Source: [Muricauda] lutisoli (nom. illeg.)
GTDB taxonomy: Bacteria > Bacteroidota > Bacteroidia > Flavobacteriales > Flavobacteriaceae
Assembly (NCBI RefSeq): GCF_017313105.1
Contig: NZ_JAFLND010000001.1
Coordinates: forward strand, 1,302,001-1,366,000
Direction: 5' to 3'
Length of the DNA: 64,000 nt
Shown here: in pieces, positions 34,787 to 38,648 of the stretch
Numbering within the stretch: the first letter of the stretch is position 1
Layout: the number at the start of each line of letters is the position of its first letter
Notes under the pieces: model-generated
The model's database searches: none
What the model was told of the DNA's origin: nothing
What the model saw: only the letters and a program-made list of their open reading frames with translations
Program-made: the position numbers and the translations under genes

Positions 34787-34806
34787 ACTGTGACATTTGT
34801 CACAGT
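34787..34806. promoter_or_regulatory. CRP/FNR-type operator (TGTGA-N6-TCACA)
   Basis: ACTGTGACA-TT-TGTCACAGT: two perfect 9-bp arms around a 2-bp centre. The core TGTGA (34789-34793), six bases, TCACA (34800-34804) is an exact match to the consensus for CRP. Its centre (34796.5) lies about 41.5 bp before the transcription start predicted from the -7 box at 34826-34833, the geometry of a class II activator site. Confidence 0.7.
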
Positions 34807-34825
34807 TTTCATCTGTCCTTCATCG

Positions 34826-34833
34826 TAAATTTG
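34826..34833 (+). promoter_or_regulatory. -7 box of the thioredoxin-permease-decarboxylase operon
   Basis: TAAATTTG, an exact TAnnTTTG match 36 nt before the thioredoxin ATG. No TTG at the -33 position, in keeping with a promoter that depends on an activator at the operator just upstream. Confidence 0.6.
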
Positions 34834-34868
34834 CGATTAAATCACATTGAAATATCGCGAACCAAAAA

Positions 34869-35114
34869 ATGAAAACGATGAATCATGTCATACAAATCTT
34901 GGGGACAGGCTGCCCCAAGTGTCAAAATCTAACCAGTATTGTAAAAGACGTTGTTGAAGAAAATCAAATAGATGCCTCCATAGAGAAAGTCGAGGATATC
35001 GAGGACATCATGAAATTTAATGTTATGATGACCCCTGCTTTGGTTGTTGACGGAAATGTGGTAATAAAGGGACGTGTTCCATCGAAGGAAGAGGTACTTT
35101 CTACTTTGCAATAA
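34869..35114 (+). CDS. Small CXXC thioredoxin-like protein
   Basis: An 81-residue single-domain thioredoxin-like protein of the "redox-active disulfide protein 2" type. Seen: VIQILGTGCPKCQNL with CXXC (CPKC) near residue 15-18, and the cis-Pro loop MMTPALVVDGNVV near 56-68 followed by GRVPSKEEV. It is cytosolic. Proteins of this kind usually stand before UPF0718/ArsP-like permease genes, exactly as here (permease starts 17 nt downstream), and may deliver electrons to the cysteines of that permease; this is inference. An ATG at 34878 is the alternative start. Confidence 0.9.
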   Translation: MKTMNHVIQILGTGCPKCQNLTSIVKDVVEENQIDASIEKVEDIEDIMKFNVMMTPALVVDGNVVIKGRVPSKEEVLSTLQ

Positions 35115-35131: not shown

Positions 35132-36109
35132 ATGTTTGATTGGCTAGAACATATGGCCCAATGGTTGGTCTACAATGTTTTTGGGATGAGCCCCGAAAAT
35201 CAATTGGCCAAAGCCATAGACTTCTTTATCTATGACAGTATCAAAATAGTATTGCTACTCTTTACAGTGGTGTTTATAATGGGAATCATCAATAGCTATT
35301 TTCCGATAGACCGAGTAAAAAATTATCTTTCCAGAAATAAACTATATGGTGCCGAGTATCTCATGGCTAGCCTTTTTGGCGTGGTTACTCCTTTTTGTTC
35401 CTGTTCGTCCGTACCCTTGTTCATTGGTTTTGTTAGAGGAGGAATCCCCTTGGGGGTCACTTTTGCTTTTTTAGTCACATCACCTTTGGTGAATGAAGTG
35501 GCCATTGGACTTTTTGTAGGACTTTTTGGGGTACAAACAACCATTTTATATGTTTTGAGCGGTGTGTTCTTAGGTACGGTATCAGGTGCGATACTTCAAA
35601 AGTTGAAGCTGGAAAGGTTTCTTACACCATGGGTAAAAGAAGTACTTGCCAATGCACAAAGAGATCAAGAACGATTTGAAGAAGAAAAACAACCATTTCA
35701 AAAAAGATTGCCCGTTATTTGGGCCGAAGCCTTAAAAATATTGAAAGGAGTCCTCCCCTACGTTATAATCGGAATAGCCATAGGAGGCTTAATGCATGGT
35801 TATGTTCCTGAGGGGTTTTTTGAAAAATATATGGCTAAAGACAACCTTTTTGCAGTTCCCGTGGCCACCATATTAGCTGTACCTATGTATTCCAATGCAT
35901 CTGGAATACTGCCCGTTGTTCAGGTTTTAGTAGATAAGGGGATTCCCTTAGGTACGGCAATTGCATTTATGATGGGCGTTGTGGGTCTATCACTTCCAGA
36001 GGCCATGCTCCTTAAAAAAGTGATGACGATTAAATTAATTGGGGTATTCTTTGGAGTAGTAATGCTTTGTATCATAGTTTCAGGCTATCTTTTCAACATA
36101 ATTCTTTAA
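35132..36109 (+). CDS. UPF0718/ArsP-like permease
   Basis: A 325-residue inner-membrane permease (DUF318/UPF0718) with eight or more helices. Seen: FGVVTPFCSCSSVPLFIGFVRGGIPLGVTFAFLVTSPLVNE near residues 86-126, whose CSC motif and TSPLVNE are family hallmarks, and the second-half counterpart VATILAVPMYSNASGILPVVQ near 247-267. ArsP relatives export trivalent organoarsenicals; other members have unknown thiol-reactive substrates. No ArsR or arsenite genes are nearby, so the substrate stays open. It is the middle gene of the operon. Confidence 0.88.
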   Translation: MFDWLEHMAQWLVYNVFGMSPENQLAKAIDFFIYDSIKIVLLLFTVVFIMGIINSYFPIDRVKNYLSRNKLYGAEYLMASLFGVVTPFCSCSSVPLFIGFVRGGIPLGVTFAFLVTSPLVNEVAIGLFVGLFGVQTTILYVLSGVFLGTVSGAILQKLKLERFLTPWVKEVLANAQRDQERFEEEKQPFQKRLPVIWAEALKILKGVLPYVIIGIAIGGLMHGYVPEGFFEKYMAKDNLFAVPVATILAVPMYSNASGILPVVQVLVDKGIPLGTAIAFMMGVVGLSLPEAMLLKKVMTIKLIGVFFGVVMLCIIVSGYLFNIIL

Positions 36110-36120
36110 CCATTAATGTA

Positions 36121-36831
36121 ATGAACATCAAAAATTCCTATCTGACTATTGCAGTCATTTTGCTTTCAATTCAGTTAAAAGCCCAAATGCCAGAAGTAAG
36201 TGTTATAGGAGCAATGAAAGACATGGGAACCACCTATGACCTTAACATTTGGTTGGACACCATCTCCAACAAACCCCATCTCTATGGCATGGGTCCCTAT
36301 GATAAAATGAAAGGTGAAATCACGGTCGTAAACGGCAAACCATACGTTGCCTCAGCTTTTACTGATGGAGCATTTGAAGTAGGAAAAGATTGGAACATCC
36401 GCTCCCCATTTTTTGTGTATTCCAACATATCCAAATGGAATATTTTTAAAATTGAGGGGAATTTGAACAGTGTTCATGACATTCAGGAAAAAGTAGCTAC
36501 CATAGCCAAGGAAAATGGGTATAACCTGGACCAACCTTTCGCATTTAAAATAAAAGGTGAATTTGATGCTGTTACAGCACATATTGTAACCCCTCGTTCA
36601 CCTGAAGTTGAAGGCTACAGGGAAGGTGTGAAATCGCAAAAATTTTCATTTGAGAATGCCAAAGGAGAATTCATTGGATTTTATTCGGAACATCACCAAG
36701 GAGTTTTTACACATATGGACGGTTTTGTACATGTTCATTTTTTAATGAAAGACAAAACTTTTATGGGCCATTTGGATAAAATTAGCACAAAGGGCAAAAC
36801 CATTACCTTATATTTACCCAAAAACCAATAG
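36121..36831 (+). CDS. Exported acetolactate decarboxylase-family protein (BudA-like)
   Basis: A 236-residue protein starting MNIKNSYLTIAVILL, with a signal peptide ending LKAQ. The body matches alpha-acetolactate decarboxylase, which makes acetoin from acetolactate. Seen: VIGAMKDMGTTYDL near 28-41, EGNLNSVHDIQEKV near 110 and the zinc-site region FYSEHHQGVFTHMDGFVHVHFL near 180-201 with several His. Most BudA enzymes are cytosolic; a periplasmic version needs a periplasmic or extracellular substrate. It lies 11 nt after the permease stop; the longer frame from 36067 overlaps that gene. Confidence 0.85.
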   Translation: MNIKNSYLTIAVILLSIQLKAQMPEVSVIGAMKDMGTTYDLNIWLDTISNKPHLYGMGPYDKMKGEITVVNGKPYVASAFTDGAFEVGKDWNIRSPFFVYSNISKWNIFKIEGNLNSVHDIQEKVATIAKENGYNLDQPFAFKIKGEFDAVTAHIVTPRSPEVEGYREGVKSQKFSFENAKGEFIGFYSEHHQGVFTHMDGFVHVHFLMKDKTFMGHLDKISTKGKTITLYLPKNQ

Positions 36832-37819: not shown

Positions 37820-38500
37820 TTACATAACATTTCCCTTTTTGTTAAGGGCTGACTTGTTCATGGCTTTTTTGGACTTCATGTTTTTCATGGACTTCATGTT
37901 CTTTTGCATGATCATTTTACGATGCTTGTACATATTGGTGAATTTTTCACCGGCCAAATTCAAGCATTCTCCATCCTGAAGCCTCAACTGCTGACGATCT
38001 TGGTTCATGTACGTACCATCTGGGTTAATGGACATTCCATTGGCAAGTTCAAGTCGCTGTTGTAATCTATTTTGTGATTGTGTTCTAATTTGATAGACAT
38101 CTCCGTCAATAAGCATCAATTGGTATCTGTTTTGGTTACGCTGCTGAATCTGAGCATCGGTCAGTCCTTTATCAGATTGCATCACTTTGTAACGATACTG
38201 GTACTCATTACGGTACTTAATTCCATCATTATCCAAACATTCACCATCTTTTAACCTAAGTCTATCGCGATCTCGGGTAAAATAGGTTCCGTTAGGATTA
38301 ACAACCGTTCCATCGTTTAGCGTAATGGGGTCCTGCAAACGAATCTGGTCTCGATCGCGAATTTGAAGAACATCGCCATCGACCAACATTAAACGGTCTC
38401 GGTCTTGATCGGGATCTTGGACTCTGTCCCTATCCCTGTCCTGTGCCATTAGTGTCACTGTTCCAAGAACAACAAACACCAACAATAAAATCTTTTTCAT
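37820..38500 (-). CDS. Exported protein with two DUF6799 repeats and Asp-Arg/Met-Lys-rich ends
   Basis: A 226-residue protein starting MKKILLLVFVVLG, with a signal peptide ending LMAQ. The first mature residues are almost all Asp, Arg and Gln (DRDRDRVQDPDQDRDRL). Two copies of a roughly 75-residue repeat follow, each with LMLVDGDV-type start, NPxGTY, LRLxDGECL and YxYR/HRKMI elements. The last 35 residues are Met/Lys-rich (seven Met), which suggests soft-metal binding, for example Cu(I); this is inference. A Met 11 codons upstream is the alternative start. The family is Bacteroidota-specific and unassigned. Confidence 0.72.
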   Translation of the reverse strand: MKKILLLVFVVLGTVTLMAQDRDRDRVQDPDQDRDRLMLVDGDVLQIRDRDQIRLQDPITLNDGTVVNPNGTYFTRDRDRLRLKDGECLDNDGIKYRNEYQYRYKVMQSDKGLTDAQIQQRNQNRYQLMLIDGDVYQIRTQSQNRLQQRLELANGMSINPDGTYMNQDRQQLRLQDGECLNLAGEKFTNMYKHRKMIMQKNMKSMKNMKSKKAMNKSALNKKGNVM

Positions 38501-38648
38501 GGTACTCGCATTTATAAAATTTATGGGAACCAAGGTATACTCACAACTTTAGGAATCCAATGACATTCGTCATCAAATCACTGACAAACAGCTATTTATA
38601 CTGATTTTACGGTAACAAAAGTTACATAAGAGGAACGGAAAAAATGCT

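Follow-up and report, generated by a model that had tools for sequence, protein, structure and literature searches.

A putative composite promoter, with a hybrid Crp/Fnr-type operator at the class II position and a probable ArsR-type operator over its -7 box, before a thioredoxin-permease-decarboxylase operon of a flavobacterium

In the class II promoters of Escherichia coli, the CRP or FNR dimer binds a site centred at -41.5 and the upstream core element is absent. Promoters that depend on an activator are, to our knowledge, little mapped in Bacteroidota. Which half-site a regulator of this family reads can be related to two of its residues: by the code of PMC1274295, which concerns nitrogen-oxide genes, the positions at which TGTGA, TTGAC and GTAAC are unlike one another correspond to residues 180 and 181. 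There, R180 (in CRP and Desulfovibrio HcpR) and the R180+E181 pair go with TGTGA, R180 without E181 goes with GTAAC (HcpR2, which has P181), and E181 without R180 goes with TTGAC. A comparable case within the phylum is CrpPg of Porphyromonas gingivalis, described in PMC12040651 as a cAMP-independent Crp homologue with trxA among the affected genes; it resembles the case presented here in being a Bacteroidota Crp homologue with a potential E. coli-like box, and differs from it in organism and in targets.

The promoter under study lies in a window of 64,000 nucleotides (the whole stretch of DNA that was analysed). Its operator, ACTGTGACA-TT-TGTCACAGT (34787-34806, no strand assigned), is a 20-bp inverted repeat centred on 34796.5 and contains, as the original prediction had it, an exact TGTGA-N6-TCACA (34789-34804). 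The -7 box TAAATTTG, of the form TAnnTTTG (34826-34833, + strand), follows 21 nt after the 16-bp core of the operator. Since TAnnTTTG corresponds to -12 to -5 in flavobacteria (PMC9723704), transcription is predicted to start at about 34838 (+ strand), which puts the operator centre at -41.5, again as claimed. No TTG is found 18-20 nt upstream of the box, so that the lack of a -33 element is also borne out; the sole TTG within 14-26 nt, with a spacer of 26, is inside the operator. The locus is thus like the E. coli class II promoters in having its site at -41.5 (with the start taken from the box) and no -33/-35 element, and unlike them in its TAnnTTTG box, in a second palindrome lying over that box, and in that the regulators read here are without the CRP residue pair. 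Taken alone, the CRP consensus carries no significance, because about four copies of TGTGA-N6-TCACA are expected by composition in this 3.42-Mb genome, where exactly one was found (0 for the reversed-pattern control). Per 64 kb, the expectation is 0.07 for this motif and 0.38 for a perfect 9-2-9 repeat, and with up to two mismatches the motif occurs 17 times in the window versus a shuffle mean of 30.6. The rarity of the motif was accordingly dropped as evidence: the operator is considered real because it is conserved at a fixed offset.

The operon had been described as encoding a thioredoxin, a permease and a decarboxylase, and the three families were recovered. The thioredoxin-fold protein (34869-35114, +; 81 aa) passes the NCBIfam cut-off for the MTH895/ArsE family (TIGR00412, 114 bits, cut-off 62). 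It is followed by a permease of the ArsP_1 family (35132-36109, +; 325 aa; PF03773, 231 bits), which stays below the NCBIfam cut-offs for the SO_0444 Cu/Zn efflux type (89 bits versus 300) and for the SaoE type (124 bits versus 325). The last gene encodes an alpha-acetolactate-decarboxylase-like protein (36121-36831, +; 236 aa from this start; PF03306, 73 bits, cut-off 25), which is below the TIGR01252 cut-off and whose N-terminus looks hydrophobic by eye. A BKACE-family gene (34578-33703) is divergent to the operon. Among the matches listed, the nearest named relative is Allomuricauda profundi, with a permease identity of 98%. A comparison is provided by arsEFG-type loci of relatives: these have the same ArsE-like thioredoxin and the same permease together with ArsR-, ArsF- and ArsG-family proteins (family names from NCBIfam), whereas in the window neither arsR nor arsF nor arsG adjoins the operon, which carries the acetolactate-decarboxylase-like gene. 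Maribacter sp. PR1 (L062) has a longer acetolactate-decarboxylase-like gene (440 aa) after an arsR-type permease cluster, an arrangement that ties together the decarboxylase-type and arsR-type operons. Elsewhere in the window, a second class II composite at 38530-38572 (- strand), i.e. TGACGAATGTCA, 23 nt and TACCTTGG (one mismatch), precedes the ATG at 38500 of a DR-repeat protein gene (ORF 37820-38533, -).

An activator of the Crp/Fnr family had been predicted for the operon, and four proteins of the genome are above the Pfam Crp HTH cut-off, two of them being REC-Crp (response-regulator/Crp) fusions. Two sub-threshold Crp-HTH matches were discarded, as by reading they are other proteins (DtxR-like and ParB-like); the cNMP domain is matched 15 times, 14 of them above cut-off. 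The FNR-like protein (C3:271706-272392), with T180/E181/R185 and Fnr as its best NCBIfam match, below cut-off, adjoins genes read as cbb3-oxidase. The other protein of interest (C3:89847-90494), with R180/V181/R185, heads a sulfide-oxidation cluster in which we read a SulP transporter, a metallo-beta-lactamase/rhodanese protein, rhodaneses and an SQR-like oxidoreductase. Motifs were sought by de novo dyad counts around orthologue loci, compared with shuffles. TGTAAC-N4-GTTACA stands at 18 of the 33 loci of the sulfide-locus protein, against a mean of 0.04 in shuffles; for the FNR-like protein, TGAT-N4-ATCA and TGAC-N4-GTCA are present at 17 and 14 of 29 loci (shuffled 1.8 and 0.4), A or T runs being equally frequent or more so among 4-base words. 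The refined matrices read TGT[A, some G]AC and [A/C]TGA[C/T] (hereafter ATGAY), respectively. The REC-Crp fusions were rejected as a source of a GTGA motif, since their loci show ATGAY (TGAT dyads at 21/22, TGAC dyads at 13/22). Several other features were seen in passing: a dyad ACGAT-N6-ATCGT outside ORFs at 17 of 29 loci around the FNR-like gene (L211-L230, L243-L250, L044); in the sulfide region (L041, G000:C3:80000-99999), TGTAAC-type sites before the metallo-beta-lactamase/rhodanese gene, a rhodanese gene and the SQR-like gene, each 21 nt by manual count before a box or box-like sequence; and, at G000:C3:80129-80611, a Crp/Fnr-type gene split into several frames, apparently a pseudogene. 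One match to TGTNAC-N4-GTNACA, G000:C3:95018-95033, was set aside because codons for the CxxCH haem motif (TGTTACGTTTGTCAC) of a cytochrome gene mimic it, a pitfall for motif scans.

When set against the residue code of PMC1274295, the sulfide-locus protein fits the R180/GTAAC rule and the FNR-like protein the E181/TTGAC rule; what does not fit is the TGTGAC of the window, in a genome where the R180+E181 pair is absent from the Crp/Fnr proteins read (the short cNMP proteins being aligned by eye). The designation of the site as a CRP-type operator thus has to be divided: the Crp/Fnr family membership stands, but, judged by the residue code, the operator appears not to be a cAMP-CRP site, because none of the Crp/Fnr proteins read has R180 and E181, let alone R180/E181/R185. 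Nor does a change of recognition helix account for the change of sites, an explanation that was rejected as the helices are nearly constant: R180, V181 and R185 are invariant in 37 aligned sulfide-locus orthologues, E181 and R185 in 33 FNR-like orthologues, where position 180 is T, or in a few I, V or L.

Conservation was followed in the promoters of the best 80 permease relatives from the genome collection plus that of the window, 81 in all, of which 62 were anchored on the box and the other 19, with no anchored promoter, were dropped. Anchoring was through the palindrome over the box, with at most two mismatches, in 59 cases and by hand on TACCTTTG in three (L052, L056 and L057), after their sites had been seen. 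Both matrices came from a training set of other loci that do not overlap the tested promoters, and were used with a cut-off of 9 bits; the fixed spacing had been noticed by eye before this matrix test. In 38 of the 62 promoters a match above 9 bits falls at exactly the offset found in the window (35 of 59 if the hand-anchored ones are removed); the remaining matches, in 14,686 windows scanned, are 3 at +1 and 4 elsewhere, and 21 of the 62 promoters have no site. As the promoter rows are kin to each other, they do not count as independent events. The 11 Allomuricauda/Flagellimonas-type promoters of this set, which we call window-type, all keep GTGA in both halves of the site amid diverged flanks. 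A difference threshold of 8 bits sorts 12 of the 41 sites into the TGTAAC type (among them L050, L051, L056 and L085, whose sequence is TGTGAC) and 11 into the ATGAY type, which leaves 18 hybrids. When promoters were labelled as one of the two site types, as hybrid or as none and placed on a permease tree whose bootstrap had not converged, 27 label changes were required against a shuffled mean of 33. Labels for TGTAAC type and ATGAY type show no more clustering than shuffled ones for this set, so that no direction of change can be read.

A further argument comes from what replaces the site. Among the 41 rows with a site, one has a TTG 18-20 nt upstream of the box; among the 22 without, ten do (Fisher p 4e-5, uncorrected for kinship, on 63 rows, L117 being counted twice). 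The 18-20 nt range was picked after the spacers were seen; with seven other ranges, p lies between 2e-5 (19-21) and 0.03 (16-23). For 16-23 nt, the TTG counts are 10/41 with a site versus 12/22 without, and 12 of the 22 site-less rows have neither a site nor a TTG at 18-20 nt. Promoters without the operator thus often bear a -33-like element instead, which matches what is expected of a class II activator. Taken together, the exact offset in 38 of 62 promoters and the exchange with TTG support the class II layout of the original prediction, and a Crp/Fnr-family activator site of class II type upstream of the operon is strongly supported by these sequence comparisons. The occurrence of regulators was compared in 50 related genomes, some of them incomplete MAGs, made up of the genome of the window and 49 picked from the best 80 loci by site class: 40 with the site and 10 with the -33 TTG instead. 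An FNR-like orthologue (>200 bits) is found in 34 of the 40 versus 1 of the 10, and the sulfide-locus protein is matched (E up to 1e-20) in 40 of the 40 versus 7 of the 10, the weakest of these matches being 37-39% identical and perhaps paralogues. The genomes of L065 and L068 have no FNR-like match >200 bits, yet the promoters have FNR-type or hybrid sites.

The -7 box is itself embedded in a near-palindrome, ATCGTAAATTTGCGAT (34822-34837, no strand assigned), an element absent from the original prediction, with its centre 33 bp after that of the Crp/Fnr operator. In all five relatives examined, an ArsR-like gene of 101-105 aa stands before the thioredoxin gene, and in four of these five an element of ATCGTAAATTTGCGAT type is in front of the ArsR-like gene; membership of the ArsR family was confirmed for one of these proteins. 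For another type of arsR, ATCGTAATATTGCAAT is found upstream in 19 of the 21 loci examined and a close form in the other 2, all 21 elements being at most two mismatches from ATCGTANNTTTGCGAT. Because ATCGTAAATTTGCGAT precedes arsR in relatives and resembles ATCGTAATATTGCAAT, it is probably an ArsR-type operator; as a palindrome over the promoter that also stands before arsR in relatives, it has what would be expected of an ArsR/SmtB operator, perhaps one served in trans. No close match to the ArsR of the relatives was found in the 11 window-type genomes (G000-G010), where the best is 44-49% identical. The only close ArsR in the genome of the window (C1:832583-832849) is 47% identical to the partner type and heads a cluster read as an arsenic cluster. 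In 3 of the 11 window-type promoters (L052, L056 and L057), the palindrome over the box is lost and the Crp/Fnr site kept. A second ArsR-type palindrome, in some copies weak (up to 4 mismatches), occurs about 380 bp after the first at L129, where it is just beyond the arsR end, and at L346-L350, L353, L354, L356, L359, L361, L362, L364 and L365.

The layout had been called striking in a Bacteroidota, but it is not rare in this genome: TGAY-N4-RTCA at the same spacing from TAnnTTTG is found 66 times versus 5 for the reversed pattern (up to one mismatch, counted on both strands, with some sites shared by two divergent boxes), and 18 of the 66 composites are exact. Downstream genes among 30 composite loci fetched include the FNR-like gene itself, a hemN-like gene, a hydrogenase small-subunit gene and a Dps-like gene, a set fitting a low-oxygen regulon as judged from the gene families. 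GTGAY-N4-RTCAC is found 12 times versus 6 for the control, which is weak by number, and TGTNAC-N4-GTNACA, at 6 versus 6 in the genome, is not significant by number. Eight of the 12 GTGAY-N4-RTCAC sites are in ORFs; the other four are before the window operon, a thioredoxin gene, a Dps-like ferritin gene and a divergent gene pair, each followed at 21 nt by a box or box-like sequence. At the divergent pair (G000:C2:336210-336283), a single GTGAC site has a box 21 nt away on either side and thus forms a divergent promoter pair; this hybrid-like site scores 0.0 on the FNR-like matrix, and the pieces searched gave no Pfam match.

The question is then which protein reads TGTGAC. Compared with TGTAAC-N4-GTTACA, the window operator has one difference per half, and its score on that matrix, 20.2, is at the median. 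On the ATGAY matrix it scores 14.2, low for the class (about the 11th percentile): the core TGAY-N4-RTCA of the FNR-like regulon is there without mismatch, but both halves have G (2% in the matrix) where A or C precedes TGA. Few of the sites simulated from one matrix reach comparable scores on the other (P 0.0023 at 9 bits, 0.00005 at 14 bits), and all 11 window-type promoters score at least 14.6 (TGTAAC) and at least 9.2 (ATGAY). That the two motifs do meet is illustrated by an SQR-like gene (C1:217492-217568), where the class II position, with box TACTTTTA, is occupied by an ATGAY-type site, and a TGTAAC-type one lies 32 bp farther upstream. TGTGAC looks like a hybrid that two resident regulators, the FNR-like and the sulfide-locus proteins, could both read, although it might instead be what a single regulator, or some third protein, binds best.

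We consider it fairly probable that the promoter is composite, i.e. that a Crp/Fnr class II operator, read by one or two resident regulators, is combined with an ArsR-type repressor over the box. A Crp/Fnr dimer at -41.5 would recruit RNA polymerase and replace the absent -33 contact, and an ArsR/SmtB repressor over the box would block the promoter until its inducer, probably an arsenical to judge from the company of the operon in relatives, is present; the ATCGTAAATTTGCGAT binder may be the ArsR of C1:832583-832849, acting in trans. Expression of the operon would then respond to low oxygen, to sulfide-type cues or to both. Our more specific proposal, that the operator has two readers, is a tentative one, to which we would give slightly less than even chances: the first G would suit the TGTAAC reader (C3:89847-90494) and the second G the ATGAY-reading FNR-like protein (C3:271706-272392), and one site would integrate sulfide-type and low-oxygen signals, with an ArsR-type gate placed over the -7 box. 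On this proposal the promoter would slide among pure types, hybrid and -33 TTG across Flavobacteriaceae and relatives with helices practically fixed. A literature search among open-licence papers found nothing on this promoter, on the ArsR composite or on the hybrid reading.

If only the sulfide-locus protein (R180/V181) activates, TGTGAC would be a tolerated variant of TGTAAC. The median score of 20.2 relative to simulated sites, the 13% of G at the fourth half-site position of the TGTAAC matrix, the match to this protein in 40 of 40 searched genomes with the site (down to 39% identity) and the TGTAAC-type sites at several related promoters are all consistent with this; however, G occupies that position in 22 of 22 half-sites of the 11 window-type promoters although the matrix has 85% A, and 11 related promoters carry ATGAY-type sites, most of them near or below zero on the TGTAAC matrix. 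We hold this reading to be unlikely, if well worth keeping in mind. The converse, activation only by proteins of the ATGAY class (the FNR-like one or the two response-regulator/Crp fusions), seems to us distinctly unlikely. It would explain the exact TGAC-N4-GTCA core in the operator, agrees with the 18 exact composites in the genome, including those before the FNR-like and hemN-like genes, with the motif shared by the REC-Crp fusion loci (TGAT 21/22, TGAC 13/22), and with the distribution of the FNR-like orthologue (34/40 versus 1/10), but leaves aside that a G before TGA, at 2% in the motif, is kept in both halves by 11 of 11 window-type promoters, and that TGTAAC-type sites are present at related promoters.

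A third regulator with true TGTGA specificity could be sought among the 15 cNMP-domain matches, which comprise several short proteins (about 195 aa) without known motif; the hybrid-like sites before the thioredoxin gene, the Dps-like gene and the divergent pair would suit it, as would the potential E. coli-like box and the similar sequences at trxA reported for CrpPg in PMC12040651. As the Crp/Fnr proteins read lack R180+E181 (the short ones as aligned by eye), and related sites drift to TGTAAC or ATGAY, a drift that a dedicated TGTGA reader would not favour, we regard such a regulator as improbable. Finally, the palindrome might be a chance repeat, about four such motifs being expected per genome by composition, or a repressor site without activating role. 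This is barely credible in view of the sharp offset peak in the 62 promoters (best 80 permease relatives and the window), the conservation of the site amid diverged flanks and its exchange with TTG near -33.

What the composite promoter offers is, in one place, an evolutionary series: the same promoter has one type of activator site, another, a hybrid, or a -33 TTG without site, and would thus be a case of regulatory site turnover while the regulators stay practically unchanged. It also defines two testable regulons, and a fixed class II geometry, with 33 bp between the operator and box centres, that is searchable in other genomes. If the two-reader proposal is true, a single site would join sulfide-type and low-oxygen signals beneath an ArsR-type gate.
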